In this document: piece by piece, positions 7,172-16,975 of the stretch | Position numbering within the stretch: position 1 is the first letter of the stretch | Layout of the letters: each line of letters opens with the position of its first letter | NCBI GenBank assembly: GCA_947490395.1 | Contig: CANLGW010000005.1 | Coordinates: forward strand, 1-37,545 | Length of the DNA stretch: 37,545 nucleotides | DNA from: Alphaproteobacteria bacterium | GTDB taxonomy: Bacteria; Pseudomonadota; Alphaproteobacteria; Paracaedibacterales; CAIOTO01 | Direction of reading: 5' to 3' | Notes under the pieces: model-generated | Database searches by the model: none | What the model saw: the letters and a program-made list of their open reading frames with translations, nothing else | Told to the model about the DNA's origin: nothing | Made by a program: the position numbers and the translations under genes

Positions 7172-7723
7172 ATGTCATTTAAAATCCTAATCATTTTAGC
7201 GCTAACTATTTTGCTGCTGTCAAATGCCTATAGCCGAAATAATGAAATTACGGATGTATGCGAAAAAGCCGATAATTGTTTCTTTCATTTTTGGGCTGTT
7301 GGTGGTAGTGGGCATAAATGCCAAGTCACAATTAATCAATTTGAAGAAAAATCATGCACTATAAAATGTAAAAATATTACATCACGTATGTATTGTAATG
7401 CTGAGAATAAAAAGTGTGAATGGATTGACCGCAAAGATGCCACTGGAAATGATGATAGTGTTTGTAAGCGAAAAACAGAATTGAAGACATTTATAAAAAA
7501 GCCACTTCCACAAAAGAAATTAAAGGTTAAAGCGTCTGCGACTGATGGTGCAGCCAGTGCCTCTGCTGATGGAGTGAATCCGGCAGCACCAAAAGCTAAA
7601 TGGGGTAAAAAAGAGAAAAATTCGCCTGCCGAAGGCAGCGAAAAACCCGCAACACCTAAGAAAGGCGTGAGCTTTGGTTTTAGTAAGAAAAAGCCAGTAA
7701 CTGATGCGCAGCCTTCTGGATAA
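7172..7723 (+). CDS. Small cysteine-rich secreted protein with Lys/Ala/Pro-rich tail
   Basis: The 183-residue protein opens with a signal peptide (FKILIILALTILLLSNAYS, cleavage near 21). The next 80 residues hold eight cysteines at 30, 36, 50, 62, 66, 75, 82 and 98, an even number that would allow four disulfides in an oxidising compartment. From about 100 on the chain is low in complexity, rich in Lys, Ala, Pro and Ser, and looks disordered and basic. I recognise no family. The upstream region and first 36 codons are duplicated as a broken copy at 5286-5394. It is divergent from the secreted gene at 5608-6969, sharing a 200-base intergenic region. A DNA-, wall- or host-binding role would be consistent with the basic tail but is not shown. 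Confidence 0.7.
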   Translation: MSFKILIILALTILLLSNAYSRNNEITDVCEKADNCFFHFWAVGGSGHKCQVTINQFEEKSCTIKCKNITSRMYCNAENKKCEWIDRKDATGNDDSVCKRKTELKTFIKKPLPQKKLKVKASATDGAASASADGVNPAAPKAKWGKKEKNSPAEGSEKPATPKKGVSFGFSKKKPVTDAQPSG

Positions 7724-8964: not shown

Positions 8965-11127
8965 ATGAAAATATACCCTGGTTCGCCAGATCGACCACGT
9001 GCTGAAAGAAAGACCACTGCAAAGTCGAACAAGCCAATAAAGCTTAAAAGAAATAAGAAAAAGCCGCATAATTTTTTAACACGTATGCTCATAAAAATGA
9101 TTTATGCGAGCTTTATGATTGGTGTATGGGGTGGCATTCTTGCAACGCTTGTGGTTTTGTGGTTTGCCCAAGATTTGCCTGATATAGGGGTGCTTTCGGT
9201 TCAAACACGAAATCCTTCTGTTACGGTGCAAACGTATGATGGTACTGTGCTTGGAAGTTATGGTGATCTTTATGAAGATATGTTACTGGTCTCTGATTTG
9301 CCAACTTATGTGCCAGAGGCTTTGATGGCGGTTGAAGATCGACGTTTTCGGTACCACTTTGGTGTTGATGTTATTGGTTTAGTACGTGCCGCTTATGCCA
9401 ATTATAAGGCACAACGGGTTGTTCAGGGTGGATCGACGTTAACACAACAGCTTGCTAAAAATATTTTACAAACGCATGGATCCTTTACGGTTCAGGATCG
9501 ATCAATGAAGCGTAAAATCCAAGAAGTTATGATATCTCTTTGGTTGGAATGGAAATTTACAAAAGATCAAATTATGACGATGTATTTAAATCGCGTCTAT
9601 TTTGGTGCAGGGACATATGGTATTGATGCAGCTGCCCGTACTTATTTTAACAAGTCAGCCCGTAACTTAACGATTTTTGAAGCTGCCGTTATTGCGGGGC
9701 TTTTGCAGGCGCCGTCTCGCTATTCACCAGCAAAGCATCCTAAAAATGCGGTTAAGCGTGCAACAACTGTTTTGCAACTTATGAAAGAGGCGGGATACAT
9801 TACCGAATATGAAAGTCATTTGAGGCAAGGAGAAATTGATCTTACAAATATTCAAATGGCGCAAGGACAAGGTGGGCGTTATTTTGCTGATTGGATTTAT
9901 GAAACGCTGCCATCTGTAATTGGACCTATTACAAAAGATTTAATTGTTATAACAACGCTTGATCCAAGTATGCAGCGTCATGCTGAAATGGTTACGAAGC
10001 ATTACAATGTGACAATGGGGAAAGAATTAAATGCCTCTCAAATTGCATTTGTTGCTATGTCACCTGATGGAGCTGTAAAAGCGCTTATTGGTGGACGTAA
10101 TTATTCAGAAAGTCAATTTAATCGTGCAACACAAGCTTATCGTCAATCAGGTTCGACTTTTAAAACATTTGTGTACTTAAGTGCAATGGAAGCAGGGATG
10201 TCACCTGATACATTAATGGATGATACGCCTTACCATGATGCAAAATGGTCACCGAGTAATTTTAAATATATATCACAAGGGGAAACCTCTCTGCGTAATG
10301 CCTTTGCAAAATCAGTAAACAGTATTTCAATTCGACTAACAAAGCAATTAACAACACAAACTGTTGCGAACACGGCATATCGCCTAGGATTAACACGTCC
10401 ATTGCATGAAGGGCTTAGTATGGCGCTTGGGGCGGGTGAAACAACATTGATTGAAATGACATCAGCACATGCAACGTTTGCAAATAAAGGATATGCAGTA
10501 TGGCCGTATGGTGTGATTGAGGTGCGTGATAAAGAAGGTAATATTTTATATCAGCGTAATGAAGGGGTTCAAAAGAAAATTATTAATGATTCAGCACTCG
10601 CAAAAATGCGTGATCTGTTGCGTGCGGTTATTGAATCAGGCGGTGGTCGGGCTGCAAATATTGATTCGACTATTGGTGGGAAAACAGGAAGTAATGGCGA
10701 TGTTGATGCCTGGTTTTTTTGTTATCGCGATGAATATGGCACATTAAATGAGGGTTTTGCTAACGTTGTTGTTGGAGTATGGGTTGGAAATGATAGTAAT
10801 GCCGCTATGCGTAAAGCTTCATTAGGCGGTCGTATACCAGCTCATGTCGCAAAGACATTTTTGTTAGGCCCTAATACGAATTTTTCAAAAATAGTAGCAT
10901 CATCCATACCAGCATCTACTGCAACGATAAAGTCTGTTCCTATACCAGCAACAATTGTTCCTGCCCCTGCGGTGGGTAAAAAAGCAAAGATACCAGAAAA
11001 AAATGTATTAACAAATACCGAAAAAATACAATCCATTGATGAGCTTTTTGATGAAGAAGATCTTGCTTCATCGCCGCAAAAGCTAGAAGAACGATCCATT
11101 GATGAGCTTTTTGGTGATATTGACTAA
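8965..11127 (+). CDS. Class A penicillin-binding protein (PBP1A-like)
   Basis: The 720-residue bifunctional wall synthase has a basic cytoplasmic tail (1-40) and one membrane anchor (about 45-68). The glycosyltransferase domain carries EDRRFRYHFG with catalytic E124, GGSTLTQQLAKN (155-166), a KIQEVM motif and YLNRVYFG (207-214). The transpeptidase domain has SGSTFK with nucleophile S397 and K400, SVN (450-452) and KTGS (573-576). Glycosyltransferase activity polymerises lipid II and the transpeptidase crosslinks stem peptides. It is close to normal PBP1A/1B length. The C-terminus after about 640 is Ala/Pro/Lys-rich and ends with two copies of SIDELF, a possible short binding motif. It fits the wall genes further along the window. 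Confidence 0.94.
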   Translation: MKIYPGSPDRPRAERKTTAKSNKPIKLKRNKKKPHNFLTRMLIKMIYASFMIGVWGGILATLVVLWFAQDLPDIGVLSVQTRNPSVTVQTYDGTVLGSYGDLYEDMLLVSDLPTYVPEALMAVEDRRFRYHFGVDVIGLVRAAYANYKAQRVVQGGSTLTQQLAKNILQTHGSFTVQDRSMKRKIQEVMISLWLEWKFTKDQIMTMYLNRVYFGAGTYGIDAAARTYFNKSARNLTIFEAAVIAGLLQAPSRYSPAKHPKNAVKRATTVLQLMKEAGYITEYESHLRQGEIDLTNIQMAQGQGGRYFADWIYETLPSVIGPITKDLIVITTLDPSMQRHAEMVTKHYNVTMGKELNASQIAFVAMSPDGAVKALIGGRNYSESQFNRATQAYRQSGSTFKTFVYLSAMEAGMSPDTLMDDTPYHDAKWSPSNFKYISQGETSLRNAFAKSVNSISIRLTKQLTTQTVANTAYRLGLTRPLHEGLSMALGAGETTLIEMTSAHATFANKGYAVWPYGVIEVRDKEGNILYQRNEGVQKKIINDSALAKMRDLLRAVIESGGGRAANIDSTIGGKTGSNGDVDAWFFCYRDEYGTLNEGFANVVVGVWVGNDSNAAMRKASLGGRIPAHVAKTFLLGPNTNFSKIVASSIPASTATIKSVPIPATIVPAPAVGKKAKIPEKNVLTNTEKIQSIDELFDEEDLASSPQKLEERSIDELFGDID

Positions 11128-11265: not shown

Positions 11266-11733
11266 ATGATTGATATTGGCATACAAAAGAAAGATCGCAA
11301 GTTGATTGCTGATTCACTTTGTCGTATGCTGGCGGATAGCTATTTATTGCTTATGAAAACACAAGGTTTTTATTGGAATATAAGGGGTGAAAGCGCATAT
11401 AATTTGCAGTTGCTGTTTCATGAAAGTGTGGTTGATTTAAAGGGGAGTATTCATTCAATTGCACAACGCGTTCGTGCATTGGATTTTTATGTGCCTATGA
11501 CATTTAATGATTTTTTACAATTGTCGAGTTTAAAAGAAGATCATCATCATTTGCATGAATCCTTGGATATTATAAGGCGATTAATTATTGATAATGAATT
11601 TCTTGTAAGGCGATCACAAGAGGTGTACGAAATTGCTACAGTATCGAATGATCCTGTGACATGTCATATGATGCAAGAGAGAATGCGTATTCATAGCGAG
11701 ATTGCTTGGAAAATGCGTATTCATATTGATTGA
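11266..11733 (+). CDS. Dps-like ferritin-fold protein lacking ferroxidase residues
   Basis: The 155-residue protein aligns without gaps to Dps family helices: ADSYLLLMKTQGFYWNIRG, then NLQLLFHES and IAQRVRALD, with a His-rich loop EDHHHLHE. Normal Dps dodecamers oxidise Fe(II) at an interface site and may coat DNA. Here the five ligands numbered H51, H63, D67, D78 and E82 in E. coli correspond to Y36, Q48, H52, H63 and Q67, so the usual site is gone. The Trp after the first ligand (W37) is kept. The fold is probably retained and the activity changed, for example toward DNA binding or a structural role. It lies 15 bases before mlaD in the same direction. Confidence 0.8.
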   Translation: MIDIGIQKKDRKLIADSLCRMLADSYLLLMKTQGFYWNIRGESAYNLQLLFHESVVDLKGSIHSIAQRVRALDFYVPMTFNDFLQLSSLKEDHHHLHESLDIIRRLIIDNEFLVRRSQEVYEIATVSNDPVTCHMMQERMRIHSEIAWKMRIHID

Positions 11734-11748
11734 GGGAATGAGCAAAGA

Positions 11749-14631
11749 ATGAATAAATCATTCAATAATTTGATAGAGACAATTTTGGGCATGCTTGTAA
11801 TCGGCATTGCTGGTTATTTTATGTATTATGCTTACAACTCAGGACAAGGCGGACGATCCTTAAGTGGTTATTCGATTGTTGCTCGTTTTGAGCGGATTGA
11901 CGGCCTTAATATTGGCAGTGATGTTAAGATAAGCGGTGTTAAAGTTGGTAGTGTTCAAAGTCTTCAAATTGACACGGAGTCCTATCAAGCAAAAGCAACA
12001 TTAATTATTAAGCATGATGTAAAAATACCAACGGATTCAAGTGCTGAAATTGTAAGTGATGGTCTTTTGGGTGGTAAGTATGTTGCTGTTGTTCCTGGGG
12101 TAGAAGAATCCATACTGAAAAATAAAGATGAAATTAATGATACACAGTCTTCGGTTAGCTTTGAGTCTTTGTTGAGTAAATTTTTGTTTTCAAAACAAGA
12201 TGATGAAAAATCAAAATCTTCTAAAAAGAAGGTTTCTGGTAACGACAGTGCTATGAATACGTTTAAGAAAAGAGAAGAGGCAGTAGAAGATGATGAAAAT
12301 GATTTGAATCATCGTAAGCGTGAGAGTGAGCCAAAAGATAAAGTAGATGCTGTACTTAAAAAAGAAGTCGTTTTACGTGATGATAAAAAAGAAATTAATA
12401 AAAAGTTTGACGATAAAGAGTTCATTGAATTTAAAAAAGACGGCTATAAAGATTTTTCTTCTAAAAAGGATCTTAAAAATGAAGAAGACACTAAAAGTGA
12501 TATTGGTGTAAAAAAAAAAGACAATTTTAATGAGCCAGAACAAAGTAATGTAAAAAAAAACGAAACAGTTAAAATAAAAGAATCAAAAAGTGATGATTAC
12601 GAAGGTAAGACTTCTAAAAATATTGATAAAAAAGAAATAAAGAAAAAAAATAAGGCAAAAAAGAAATCCACACAAAAGAAAGAAAAAGAAACAGCGGATA
12701 AAGATGATGTTTCAGAAAATGATGCAGATGATATAAATCAATCTGATGAAGACACTGATGAAGATGATTCTGATGCTACATCTGAAGAAGATGCTGATAC
12801 CGATGAGGAAGATACGTCGGTAGCAGATACTGACGAAGAAGAAGAATCAGATATAATCGTTGAAAACGATGAGGCAACAGATGAAAAATCAGAAGACGAT
12901 GCCCACGAACAAGAGCAAACAGAAGCGAAAGAAAAAAATGATGACGATGAAACAGCGACAAATAAAACACAGGTGAACCAGATTGATCAGGATGTCACCG
13001 CTCTAAAAGCACCAAATCATGCTGCCCTGAAGGTACCACAAAAGGTAAAAAAATCATCTAAAATAGCAGCTGAAAAAATTGTTAAAAAGAAGGCGAATAC
13101 TAAACCAAACTTGGTATCACCAATAAAAGTTGAGCCGAATGAAAAATCAAAGACGGCTGTTAAAGCGTCTGCAAAATCAATTGATAAGAAACAATTAGCT
13201 GCCAAAGTGCAATTAGCTGATAAAAAGAAGTCACTCACGAAGGTGCAGCCAAAGACAGTAAAACCGCATACTGAAAAATCAAAATCAGCGATAGTTAATC
13301 CTAAAAAGCAGCCAAAGGAAAATAACTTAAAAGAAACAGTATCTGCTAAAAAAGTACAATTGAAAAATGCACCACAGAAAAGTATCCCATCAAAAATAGG
13401 TTCATCAGAAACAGCAAAAAATGATGTAGCAAAATCGAAAGTTACGGGAAGAACAGGTGTTGCACAAAAGTCTAATCAACAGCAAAAAGCTGGTTCACCT
13501 AAAAAGCTTAAGGTAGAACAAAAACATATACCGCCCCAAAAATCAGTTGCTGCAATTGCGATGCAAGAGGCATCACCGCCACCAGCTGCTGCTGTGGCGC
13601 TTGATAAGGAAATAGCGGAAGTTTTGCCACCTGAAATGCAGCATCATGAGGCGCCCCCACCAATGGCTGCGAATGCGCTTAATAAGGAAATGGTAGAAAT
13701 AGTGCCACCTGAAATGCAGAAACCTGAAGCACCACCACCGGCTGCTACTGCTGAATTAAAAAAAGAGATTGAAAATGCGGTTTTGCCAGGAAAGATTGAG
13801 CCTGAAGCGCCACCACCAATGGCTGCTGCAGAACTTGAAACTGTAATTGATGCTATTGAAGCCAAAAATGAAGCTGAGGAAGAAGCCAAAGAGGCAAAAG
13901 AAAATGCAGATGGGGATGTTGGTGTAAGTGAAGATGGTGGGACGGCGGATGCCACGTCTGAAGCAGGAGGGGCTATTGAGGCTGAGACGCCTGATGCAGT
14001 AGAAGCTGAAGTGCCAGAGGTTCAAACATTACTAGAAACAGAAATCGTTGCATCAGAAGAAGCATCACCAGAAGTGGAAGCAACGGAGGTTCAAGCGGCC
14101 GATCAACAACAAGGGGCTGAGCAGACTCCAGAAGCTGAAGTACCAGAAGCAGAGGCGGCATTGTCCACTGAAGTAGCAGTACCAGAATCAGTCGTCGTAC
14201 CAGAAACTGAAGCAACGGAGGTTCAAGCAGCCGATCAACAACAAGGGGTTGAGCAGACTCCAGAAGCTGAAGTACCAGAAGCAGAGGCAGCAGTGTCCAC
14301 TGAAGCAGCAGTACCAGAATCAGTCGTCGTACCAGAAACTGAAGCAACGGAGGTTCAAGCAGCCGATCAACAACAAGGGGCTGAGCAGACTCCAGAAACT
14401 GATGAAGCTGAAGCACCAGGAGTAGAGGCGGCAACCTCTCCTGAAGCAGCGGCACCAGAAGCAGTCGTCGTACCAGAAACTGAAGCAACGGAGGTTCAAG
14501 CGGCCGATCAACAACAAGGAGCTGAGCAAGTTCCAGAAGTTGAAGCACCAGGAGCAGAAGTGGCAACATCTTCTGAAGCAGCGGCACCAGAAGCAGTCAC
14601 ACCTGAAGCCCAAACAACCGATCAGCAATAA
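11749..14631 (+). CDS. mlaD: MlaD-family lipid-binding protein with a very long low-complexity tail
   Basis: The 960-residue protein starts as a standard MlaD: one membrane anchor (9-28) and an MCE domain (about 41-118) with GLNIGSDVKISGVKVG and the GLLGGKYV turn. MlaD is the periplasmic ring of the MlaFEDB phospholipid transporter that keeps outer-membrane lipid asymmetry. Family proteins are about 150-200 residues, whereas here some 800 residues follow. They are Lys/Asp/Glu-rich to about 430, then Lys/Ala/Ser-rich, then carry four EAPPP repeats (from 607), and finally four repeats of about 44 residues. No stop or frameshift interrupts the frame. The tail is probably disordered and periplasmic. 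The mlaE, mlaF and mlaC partners are not in the window. The upstream GAGGGAATGAG may be the ribosome site. Confidence 0.85.
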   Translation: MNKSFNNLIETILGMLVIGIAGYFMYYAYNSGQGGRSLSGYSIVARFERIDGLNIGSDVKISGVKVGSVQSLQIDTESYQAKATLIIKHDVKIPTDSSAEIVSDGLLGGKYVAVVPGVEESILKNKDEINDTQSSVSFESLLSKFLFSKQDDEKSKSSKKKVSGNDSAMNTFKKREEAVEDDENDLNHRKRESEPKDKVDAVLKKEVVLRDDKKEINKKFDDKEFIEFKKDGYKDFSSKKDLKNEEDTKSDIGVKKKDNFNEPEQSNVKKNETVKIKESKSDDYEGKTSKNIDKKEIKKKNKAKKKSTQKKEKETADKDDVSENDADDINQSDEDTDEDDSDATSEEDADTDEEDTSVADTDEEEESDIIVENDEATDEKSEDDAHEQEQTEAKEKNDDDETATNKTQVNQIDQDVTALKAPNHAALKVPQKVKKSSKIAAEKIVKKKANTKPNLVSPIKVEPNEKSKTAVKASAKSIDKKQLAAKVQLADKKKSLTKVQPKTVKPHTEKSKSAIVNPKKQPKENNLKETVSAKKVQLKNAPQKSIPSKIGSSETAKNDVAKSKVTGRTGVAQKSNQQQKAGSPKKLKVEQKHIPPQKSVAAIAMQEASPPPAAAVALDKEIAEVLPPEMQHHEAPPPMAANALNKEMVEIVPPEMQKPEAPPPAATAELKKEIENAVLPGKIEPEAPPPMAAAELETVIDAIEAKNEAEEEAKEAKENADGDVGVSEDGGTADATSEAGGAIEAETPDAVEAEVPEVQTLLETEIVASEEASPEVEATEVQAADQQQGAEQTPEAEVPEAEAALSTEVAVPESVVVPETEATEVQAADQQQGVEQTPEAEVPEAEAAVSTEAAVPESVVVPETEATEVQAADQQQGAEQTPETDEAEAPGVEAATSPEAAAPEAVVVPETEATEVQAADQQQGAEQVPEVEAPGAEVATSSEAAAPEAVTPEAQTTDQQ
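13567..13860 (+). repeat. Four EAPPP-type protein repeats inside mlaD
   Basis: Four units of about 24-27 codons, each starting E-A-(S/P)-P-P and containing an Ala-rich patch followed by a helix-like LxKEI segment and a PPEMQ-like end. The fourth is shortened. Base differences between units show this is an old duplication. Confidence 0.75.
14077..14628 (+). repeat. Four tandem repeats of about 132-141 bp at the 3' end of mlaD
   Basis: Units start at 14077, 14209, 14341 and 14482 with GAAGCAACGGAGGTTCAAGC. The first two are exactly 132 bp, the third is 141 bp and the fourth ends with the gene. They encode EATEVQAADQQQG followed by Glu/Ala/Val/Pro-rich sequence. Near identity at the DNA level suggests recent slippage or unequal exchange, so copy number may vary between strains. 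Confidence 0.9.
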
Positions 14632-14675
14632 GTTTAAGCCTCAATTCGGGATTAGATTTTATATAGCTCAACCCT

Positions 14676-14832
14676 CCGTCATCACAAGAAAGCGCTACGC
14701 TTCCGTGGTAATCGAATGGCTGCCTAATGTTCAGTGGCTGCTCATCATGCAGAAATACCTGTTTTCCTGAATGACCATACCCCTTCGGGGCTCGCGCATT
14801 CCGACAGCAAAAGTTCACAAAATGATCTATAA
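14676..14832. repeat. Dispersed intergenic repeat, copy 2
   Basis: This element shares CCGTCATCAC, TCAGTGGCTGCTCAT, CATGCAGAAATACCTG, TTTTCCTGAATGACC, GGCTCGC and AAAAGTTCACAAAATGATC with copy 1, in the same order. It sits between the convergent mlaD and tssA genes. It also has a small internal palindrome, CCCCTTCGGGG. Confidence 0.7.
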
Positions 14833-14882: not shown

Positions 14883-16037
14883 TTATCGCGCACTACTGCC
14901 AGCTAACATCCGCAAGAGGTTGTGCGCCTCCGACTTTCCTTCATTAATATCACTCACAATTTGCAAGAGCTTTTTATCTTCCCACGTAACGATAAGGTCT
15001 AATAAATAAGGTGCTGGACTATGAGGGTCTATTTCCATTAAGAATTTCCCCAATTCATGAATCGCGCGATAGGCATCGGCACGTTGAGCAATAACTTCAG
15101 GTTCACTTTGTGATGACACTGTCTGCTGCACCGCATCTTCATTCGCCATAATTGAAGCAACATCCTTAAGTCCAAAAGGATCACTGATATCCATAGAGCT
15201 TGCTGGAGTCTCTGGCAGACTTTGTTCATTCACGCGTAATTCCAATGCTGAACTAACGATACGTATAAGCGCGTCTAGATTACTACATGTACCAGTAAAC
15301 ATAGGAATATAACTCGGAAATAAATGCTGAGATAAATCTTGAAAATCCGTAAGGGCAGTAAGAAACATAAGAGCATCTGCATAAAGTGCTTCAAGTACTC
15401 TTTTTGGTGCCAACGACAACCCACGTCTAAAACGTGCAAGCGTTACTTTTCCTGATGTTTCAGCATTTGTTAATAGTGCTTGACTATCAGGTGAACGCCT
15501 AGCAATTTTATCAAAATTAACGGCCTCAATCCAATCGGATAAATTAAGTGCATGCAAATCAATGCTTGATAAAACTGGTGTAATTTCAATGAACAATAAC
15601 CTATTTTGAAGCGTCTTATCAATCCAATCAAAGACATTAAGACGTTCTTCAAAATCATTATCCAAAACCTGTGGGTATGCAATATGCCAAAACAGACGAC
15701 AAAATTGATCAAGCACTTGCATGCCAAAAGCACCACCTTTAAGACCATTCAAAATAAGCCACGCTTCCATAAGCCAGCCCATGATTTGCAAATCTTTTGA
15801 TTGAGTACTAAGAGCATCGATACACAAACGTTCAACTTCTGAGAAATCCGCACGCTTTATAGCTGTTGTCCAAATTCCCCTGGATAGCTGTTCATTATCT
15901 TCACGACGCGCTTCCCTAATGTCATCATAAATAGCATCATAACGAAGAGAAGCACCCGCACCTTCATTTAACTCTAAACAGATTAAAATTAGTGATAACA
16001 ACGTGGGCTGCACGATCCCTTCTGCGTGATTTTGCAC
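14883..16037 (-). CDS. tssA: Type VI secretion system protein TssA
   Basis: The 384-residue protein carries the ImpA N-terminal domain of TssA: GASLRYDAIYDDIREARRED (about 28-47), then LSRGIWTTAIKRADFSEVE, LSTQSKDLQIMGWLMEAW and a GGAFGMQVL segment. The C-terminal part holds YRAIHELGKFLMEIDPHSP and the APYLLDLIVTW motif typical of TssA C-termini. TssA binds the baseplate and guides assembly of the sheath and tube. No other T6SS gene is within the window, so the system is either scattered or incomplete. The start ATG lies at 16035-16037. The L,D-transpeptidase upstream is in the same direction but 386 bases away, so a shared transcript is doubtful. Confidence 0.85.
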   Translation of the reverse strand: MQNHAEGIVQPTLLSLILICLELNEGAGASLRYDAIYDDIREARREDNEQLSRGIWTTAIKRADFSEVERLCIDALSTQSKDLQIMGWLMEAWLILNGLKGGAFGMQVLDQFCRLFWHIAYPQVLDNDFEERLNVFDWIDKTLQNRLLFIEITPVLSSIDLHALNLSDWIEAVNFDKIARRSPDSQALLTNAETSGKVTLARFRRGLSLAPKRVLEALYADALMFLTALTDFQDLSQHLFPSYIPMFTGTCSNLDALIRIVSSALELRVNEQSLPETPASSMDISDPFGLKDVASIMANEDAVQQTVSSQSEPEVIAQRADAYRAIHELGKFLMEIDPHSPAPYLLDLIVTWEDKKLLQIVSDINEGKSEAHNLLRMLAGSSAR

Positions 16038-16423: not shown

Positions 16424-16975
16424 TTATTCAATCGTCCAAATAAGACCTTCATCGCATTCATTTACAATCGTTAATAAATCATCTTTCCGTAATGACAAAC
16501 ACCCATCTGTTGGTTTTAATATAGAAACACCATGCTCATTTATATCCTCAGCAGCGATATGAATAAAAATAGCGCTGCCGCGATAAGGAACAACGGGATT
16601 CATATTGTGGTTAGTGATCAGCACCAAATCATACACATGATCATCGCGCCATAAATCTTCATGACTTGCTAAAAACGGCTTGGTGACATAAGCATTATAA
16701 GAAGGATGTGTTGGCTCATCACACCAGCCTGCGTCTTGTGTATTATGATCAATAGAAAGCTTTGATTTTACAAATGTTTCACAGATACGGTCAGTTCTTA
16801 CAATCCCTCGTATCACCTGATACTGCCCTAAAGGAGTACACCCATCCCCTTCACGTTTATCAGACGCAGCAATAACCCCATTTCGCCCAATCGATGCAGG
16901 AAAGCATTTATCACGCCATATGACAAACATAAGACCATTTTCAAAATGAGTGCGAATAATATTATGAGTATTCAT
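16424..16975 (-). CDS. L,D-transpeptidase family protein (YkuD fold)
   Basis: The 183-residue protein has the YkuD catalytic signature late in the chain: His139 in IFIHIA and the nucleophile Cys159 in PTDGCLSL. Earlier elements match the alphaproteobacterial subgroup: REGDGCTPLGQY (41-52), DAGWCDEPTHPSYNAYV and an LWRDDHVYDLVL segment. Such enzymes make 3-3 crosslinks or attach proteins to peptidoglycan. I see no signal peptide in the first 30 residues, so export is unclear; many members of this subgroup look the same. A start at ATG 16973-16975 is used. It is divergent from murG, with 134 bases between them. Confidence 0.87.
   Translation of the reverse strand: MNTHNIIRTHFENGLMFVIWRDKCFPASIGRNGVIAASDKREGDGCTPLGQYQVIRGIVRTDRICETFVKSKLSIDHNTQDAGWCDEPTHPSYNAYVTKPFLASHEDLWRDDHVYDLVLITNHNMNPVVPYRGSAIFIHIAAEDINEHGVSILKPTDGCLSLRKDDLLTIVNECDEGLIWTIE

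Follow-up and report, generated by a model that had tools for sequence, protein, structure and literature searches.

MlaD is known both as a short, canonical protein and in elongated forms, which we summarize from the accessible parts of the published reports. Canonical MlaD chains measure 157-183 aa, and the Escherichia coli protein has a short tail that is disordered after about residue 152 (PMC10245069). Disorder of the MlaD tail has been predicted (PMC10474453), and the C-terminal tail of the partner protein MlaA is described as binding MlaC (PMC10245069). Long MlaD proteins, averaging 374 aa, are reported to make up 85 % of homologues, and the short form to be confined to Proteobacteria; the MlaD of Veillonella parvula (419 aa) carries about 150 helical residues and a C-terminal β-barrel, many MlaD proteins without a barrel carry disordered C-termini, and β-barrel MlaD tends to go with the absence of MlaA and MlaC (PMC10665443). 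The Brucella protein MpcD (331 aa) has an extended helical C-terminus that was modelled as a needle (PMC12436622), and TonB and TolA domain II are described as Pro-rich or disordered and periplasm-spanning (PMC12204202). Here, we describe an mlaD gene whose product reaches 960 aa and which lies in a 37,545-nt stretch of contig CANLGW010000005.1 (assembly GCA_947490395.1, Alphaproteobacteria bacterium), hereafter the window. The initial annotation, made from the letters of the window, stated that an MlaD tail of this kind was unknown to it. That goes too far in view of published elongated MlaD proteins, in some of which the C-terminus is disordered (PMC10665443, PMC12436622), and it is the length that stands: no MlaD approaching 960 aa was found in the open-access literature searched, which is not proof of absence in print. 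Together with that of a sister species, the tail greatly exceeds those of the other MlaD proteins sampled here.

The protein begins as an ordinary MlaD. The model TIGR04430 (outer membrane lipid asymmetry maintenance protein MlaD, equivalog) matches residues 7-148 with 144.7 bits, above its curated cut-off of 135, and the transmembrane helix, one MCE domain and the C-terminal pore helix are all present. A phmmer search with the window protein matched 13 distinct PDB sequences at E <= 0.01, led by 7ch8 over residues 18-155. Residues 7-155 thus correspond to canonical MlaD (TIGR04430; E. coli MlaD, PDB 6zy2; best solved match 7ch8) in their transmembrane helix, their one MCE domain and their C-terminal helix. 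There is one PF02470 stretch in the chain, as opposed to several in the periplasm-spanning, multi-MCE proteins of the PqiB/LetB type. The C-terminal helix SVSFESLLSKFLF belongs to normal MlaD and is present likewise in relatives from the order. An end of the MlaD domain near residue 120, as first proposed, agrees with the Pfam boundaries; because TIGR04430 reaches residue 148 and the C-terminal helix is part of normal MlaD, however, canonical MlaD stops near residue 150, leaving a tail proper (residues 151-960) of 810 rather than 840 aa. The frame runs on past the domain without interruption, as claimed, in a single ATG-to-TAA reading frame of 960 codons. When the tail DNA was simulated 3000 times with a first-order Markov model, the frame never stayed open (mean 46.6 stops), and the other two forward frames hold 48 and 144 stops.

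A scan of genome contigs with the first 137 residues returned 11 loci. The best of these (L002; CANKZX010000031, an alphaproteobacterial metagenome-assembled genome) encodes a 1005-aa ortholog that aligns end to end, with 93 % identity over residues 1-150 and 57 % overall; this long-tail gene is that of a second genome of the window's genus (G004). Upstream of the terminal repeats, every gap in the nucleotide alignment has a length divisible by three, and the charge blocks of the tail run in identical order in both proteins. The terminal repeats differ, being 162 nt long and of different sequence in the ortholog vs 132 nt in the window.

We then placed this length among relatives, with survey frames measured stop to stop. 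Of the 42 genomes of the order, 37 have MlaD-domain places (49 in all), and frames of more than 363 codons occur only in the window's genome (G000) and G004. Within the window's family, 4/6 genomes have an MlaD match, with lengths from the first methionine of 224 (G001), 359 (G005), 960 (G000) and 1005 aa (G004); the two shorter proteins carry short charged tails. In a class sample (matches in 354 of 385 genomes), the median frame among the 150 matches listed is 172 codons and the longest are 319, 643 and 965. The 643-codon frame (G354) was rejected as a second long MlaD, as the open frame merely extends upstream through GC-rich DNA and the protein measures about 158 aa from the MlaD methionine. 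Among the 116 phylum matches listed above the cut-off (160 genomes), the longest besides the window protein is 267. The possibility that such tails are common among MlaD proteins therefore fails for the genomes sampled. The initial annotation had proposed comparing tail length among relatives; the giant tail proves genuine, is kept open in two species and is exceptional, a case of extreme tail growth inside one bacterial family.

The acidic/lysine-rich, Pro-rich and Ala/Glu repeat zones that had been noted in the tail were all found, and we divided the tail into five zones (Table 1). It contains neither Cys nor Trp, and ILMFWYV make up 16 % in both orthologs. The repeated unit of zone 4 is of the type APPPxAAxxLxKExxExxPPEMQ, and its last copy continues into a predicted helix. 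Along the tail, the G+C content climbs from 27 % (12250-12749) to about 51 % (14000-14749), and A is strongly favoured over T on the forward strand of the tail DNA (12199-14628; AT skew up to 0.49). We took the antisense frames (204 aa at 13973-14587) to be shadows of the repeats. Pfam searches at E 0.1 returned no match for residues 151-469, 596-715 or 716-960 or for the whole tail of the ortholog; residues 470-595 were covered within the whole protein and through their counterpart within the whole ortholog tail. The APPP segment found no relative among PDB sequences, and residues 598-960 matched, among the 42 genomes of the order, only G000, G004 and one stretch of G017 (E 0.0088).

This tail differs from each of the described extensions. 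As in the long MlaD proteins that lack a barrel (PMC10665443), the C-terminal extension is disordered, here by prediction, and forms no complete barrel, yet the window protein is about 2.5 times longer, is divided into blocks of charge, carries the APPP module in repeated form and occurs within Proteobacteria. Brucella MpcD likewise has a C-terminal extension on an alphaproteobacterial MlaD-like protein, but that extension is described as helical (PMC12436622, in part), whereas the window tail is mostly predicted coil. The layout, in which an inner-membrane helix leads into a long periplasmic spacer rich in Pro or charged residues, is reminiscent of TonB/TolA as outlined in PMC12204202, by analogy only; unlike these, the tail has no TonB/TolA C-terminal domain by Pfam and ends in an Ala/Glu array.

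Zone 4 is the one clearly constrained module of the tail, going by comparison of the two long-tail sequences. As a control, we shuffled the codons of each zone 40 times, realigned by MAFFT and computed the ratio of the proportions of nonsynonymous and synonymous differences (pN/pS). The MCE domain gave 0.077 (lowest shuffle 0.63), and zone 4 gave 0.285, under all 40 shuffles (lowest 0.373). Zone 4 is also 71 % identical to the ortholog without gaps, and its units 3 and 4 match one-to-one across species (21/26 residues identical each, <=14 to other units), whereas the pairing of units 1 and 2 between species is ambiguous. Zones 1 (0.443 vs a lowest shuffle of 0.455) and 5 (0.456 vs 0.511) pass narrowly. 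We rejected purifying selection over the whole tail: a Nei-Gojobori style dN/dS, the ratio of nonsynonymous to synonymous rates, is low in each zone that allows the calculation, at 0.15-0.40 (not computable for the terminal array), but shuffled controls give a pN/pS of about 0.6, and plain low values mislead because low-complexity protein aligns well with itself.

A full-length AlphaFold2 model, built on a 9-row alignment with 2 rows covering the tail, gave a predicted local distance difference test (pLDDT) below 50 for 815/960 residues. It recovered helix 3-33 and the MCE strands; in the tail, only helix 693-718 has block means of at least 60 (60-79), and no strands were placed beyond residue 129 in this low-confidence model. 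A model of the 120-residue zone-4 segment (2 rows) shows four helices, of which the final one has a block pLDDT of 85-92. Within the limits of a shallow alignment, the models are consistent with a disordered spacer carrying a partly helical module.

Taken together, these data point, as a tentative reading that falls a little short of probable, to a canonical MlaD with a lineage-added, mostly disordered periplasmic spacer of about 810 residues that displays one conserved module. An ordinary inner-membrane MlaD, with one transmembrane helix, one MCE domain and a pore-lining C-terminal helix, would have gained the tail in this lineage, and six tails per presumed MlaD hexamer would emerge at the mouth of the lipid pore. 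The charge-blocked flexible spacer would hold the four APPP units and helix 693-718 far from the inner membrane, where the displayed module may dock a partner, which could be MlaC, the outer-membrane MlaA side or components of the cell wall; the terminal Ala/Glu array would be a rapidly changing extender. General polymer scaling puts the two ends of an 810-residue coil at an estimated 25 nm or so from each other, close to the width of the periplasm, so that the span suggested in the initial annotation is physically plausible. No outer-membrane anchor was seen in the tail (no Pfam family and no predicted strands), and because MlaA and a diverged MlaC are kept (see below), no bridge is required.

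Several results weigh against this interpretation. The low pLDDT of the tail is weak evidence for disorder, because only 2 of the 9 alignment rows cover it, and AlphaFold2 put the MCE domain partly below 50 as well. Amphipathic docking helices were considered and rejected, as the hydrophobic moments of all eight helices were non-significant. The pN/pS values of zones 2 (0.542 vs a lowest shuffle of 0.472) and 3 (0.547 vs 0.511) lie inside the shuffle range, and the correlation of charge between the orthologs at differing columns is marginal (r 0.42; 164/5000 permutations as high). Only two long-tail sequences were available for comparison. In E. coli MlaD, moreover, the disordered residues 153-183 are reported to be needed neither for MlaC binding nor for function: deleting 153-183 was tolerated, although deleting 141-183 was not (PMC10245069, accessible in part).

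Since firm constraint covers only about 115 of the 810 tail residues and comes from two sequences, largely neutral growth is a serious rival, even if we consider it on balance unlikely. Under weak selection, replication slippage in this small genome would have lengthened a tolerated, unstructured C-terminus, with drift in length and composition and with the APPP module merely its oldest part. In favour of this, the 224- and 359-aa proteins have short charged tails, the terminal array is lineage-specific and repeat-driven, the E. coli tail is dispensable, and zones 2 and 3 give no sign of constraint other than on composition, because realigned codon shuffles give pN/pS of about 0.6. On the other hand, neutral expansion does not readily account for an APPP module conserved beyond all 40 shuffles, for the retained order of the charge blocks or for more than 800 tail codons that are free of stops in both species, though about half or more of the synonymous sites differ.

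The gene neighbourhood raises a further possibility. In G004, the order pbp1A-dps-mlaD is as in the window, and in G001 and G005, pbp1A lies directly upstream of mlaD; pbp1A therefore precedes mlaD in all four MlaD-bearing genomes of the family, with dps between them in the two long-tail ones. Across 18 pbp1A loci, mlaD lies downstream in these 4 and not in the other 14, namely that of G003, a third genome of the window's genus, and 13 from other families, which were inspected over flanks of about 1.5 kb (one cut at a contig end). As the adjacency occurs in family genomes only, both the siting of mlaD beside pbp1A and the lengthening of its tail are features of the family. One could thus imagine that mlaD moved beside pbp1A and that its tail binds peptidoglycan or the PBP1A machine, linking lipid transport to envelope growth; we regard this as improbable, since it draws on gene order alone, the tail has no peptidoglycan-binding domain and G003 has pbp1A with another neighbour and no MlaD match. 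A bolder form of the preferred display reading, equally doubtful, would have six disordered arms per ring act as periplasmic fishing lines with APPP docking arrays, tethered delivery replacing free diffusion of the shuttle and the arms either catching MlaC or the outer-membrane side or tying Mla to PBP1A and the cell wall.

The PBP1A C-terminus of the window (11020-11127) carries two copies of a [ST]-[LI]-D-[DE]-L-F motif (SIDELFDEED and SIDELFGDID). PBP1A of G001 and G003 ends in TLDDLFQ, and the MlaD tail of G005 contains NDDLFGFED. This is possibly a short binding motif.

The remaining Mla components bear on whether the tail stands in for the shuttle. MlaA was detected in 39/42 genomes of the order, including G004 and the window's genome (C36). 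MlaE was found in 4/6 family genomes, among them the window's genome (C25, a different contig from mlaD), and not in G003 or G004. PF05494 detected MlaC in 34/42 genomes of the order, with no match in G000 or G004. The absence of this match hinted that the tail might replace MlaC; a closer query, the MlaC of G001, ruled this out for the window's genome by matching a 204-aa frame (C31; L063:1444-2058, reverse strand) at E 1.6e-5 and 27 % identity. This frame adjoins groEL, as do the MlaC genes of G001 and G003, and it is strongly diverged, the MlaC of G003 being 58 % identical to that of G001. No MlaC was found in G004 with PF05494 or the G001 protein as query, in a genome that is 88 % complete. 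With MlaA, MlaE and a diverged MlaC in the genome, as expected for a canonical MlaD, the tail does not replace the shuttle, which this genome retains.

A transenvelope bridge like that of Veillonella, in which the tail would carry lipid or contact the outer membrane directly and make MlaC and MlaA unnecessary, is accordingly very unlikely. The tail is amply long, an elongated barrel MlaD is a published precedent and neither long-tail genome has a PF05494 match; however, MlaA is present in both, a diverged MlaC lies beside groEL in the window's genome, and neither a β-barrel, strands nor a hydrophobic conduit is predicted. The Veillonella protein likewise extends past its MCE domain, but with a helix and barrel and without MlaA or MlaC (PMC10665443, in its accessible part), whereas the window protein has a low-complexity tail with no barrel after a long helix (no Pfam match in the tail and no strand in the low-confidence model) and keeps both partners. 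Finally, a frameshift, misassembly or two-gene fusion is refuted, apart from the copy number of the terminal repeats, which could be misassembled: beyond the general risk of a 94-contig assembly with tandem repeats nothing favours it, and the colinear ortholog of the same architecture from a separately named record, the in-frame gaps and the absence of a second-gene domain in the tail all stand against it.

How lipids travel through the periplasm, with a shuttle or over a bridge, is a matter of debate. A short-type MlaD that has kept its shuttle partners and acquired an enormous disordered arm would stand between these two designs, and would let one test in a natural case whether a shuttle system can acquire tethering or reach.

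Two further observations concern Mla proteins of these genomes. In G003 (95 % complete), MlaA and MlaC were found and neither MlaD nor MlaE, and pbp1A has different neighbours; the pathway is partly lost there, or the assembly has a gap. The MlaA of the window's genome (L110:3801-4652, reverse strand) has the N-terminus ...AQIVSHAHNEK..., with no lipobox cysteine by eye and a short acidic stretch, suggesting that it may not be a lipoprotein.

Table 1. Features of mlaD and its surroundings in the window
Feature	Position	Strand	Remarks
mlaD gene	11749..14631	+	960 aa, about 103 kDa, isoelectric point 4.6
N-terminal transmembrane helix, residues 3-33	11755..11847	+	AlphaFold2 helix, block pLDDT 76-90
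MCE/MlaD domain, residues 40-117	11866..12099	+	PF02470, E 8.5e-22
End of canonical MlaD, residues 118-150, with conserved C-terminal helix LLSKFLF	12100..12198	+	TIGR04430 to 148; 7ch8 to 155
Tail zone 1, residues 151-310, Lys/Asp/Glu polyampholyte (K 28 %, D 13 %, E 12 %)	12199..12678	+	57 % identity to ortholog
Tail zone 2, residues 311-410, strongly acidic (D+E 48 %; net -28 within one 50-residue stretch)	12679..12978	+	
Tail zone 3, residues 411-600, Lys-rich basic (K 24 %; net up to +11 per 50 residues)	12979..13548	+	
Tail zone 4, residues 601-715, four 26-residue APPP units	13549..13893	+	Best conserved part of tail
Predicted 26-residue helix closing APPP array, residues 693-718	13825..13902	+	AlphaFold2
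Tail zone 5, residues 716-960, acidic Ala/Glu/Val/Gln array, nearly without Lys or Arg	13894..14628	+	
132-nt tandem repeat in zone 5	14077-14598	+	
Class A penicillin-binding protein gene (PBP1A-like)	8965..11127	+	Upstream neighbour retained in family
Dps-like ferritin gene	11266..11733	+	PF00210; 15 nt upstream of mlaD; in both long-tail genomes
ImpA_N (type VI secretion) gene, convergent, downstream of mlaD	14883-16037	-	
YkuD L,D-transpeptidase gene adjoining ImpA_N gene	16424-16975	-	

Further upstream in the window, a gene at 7172-7723 (forward strand) encodes a 183-aa protein that gave no Pfam or NCBIfam match and whose C-terminal part is of low complexity and rich in Lys, Ala, Pro and Ser; on that strand it precedes tatD, pbp1A, dps and mlaD.

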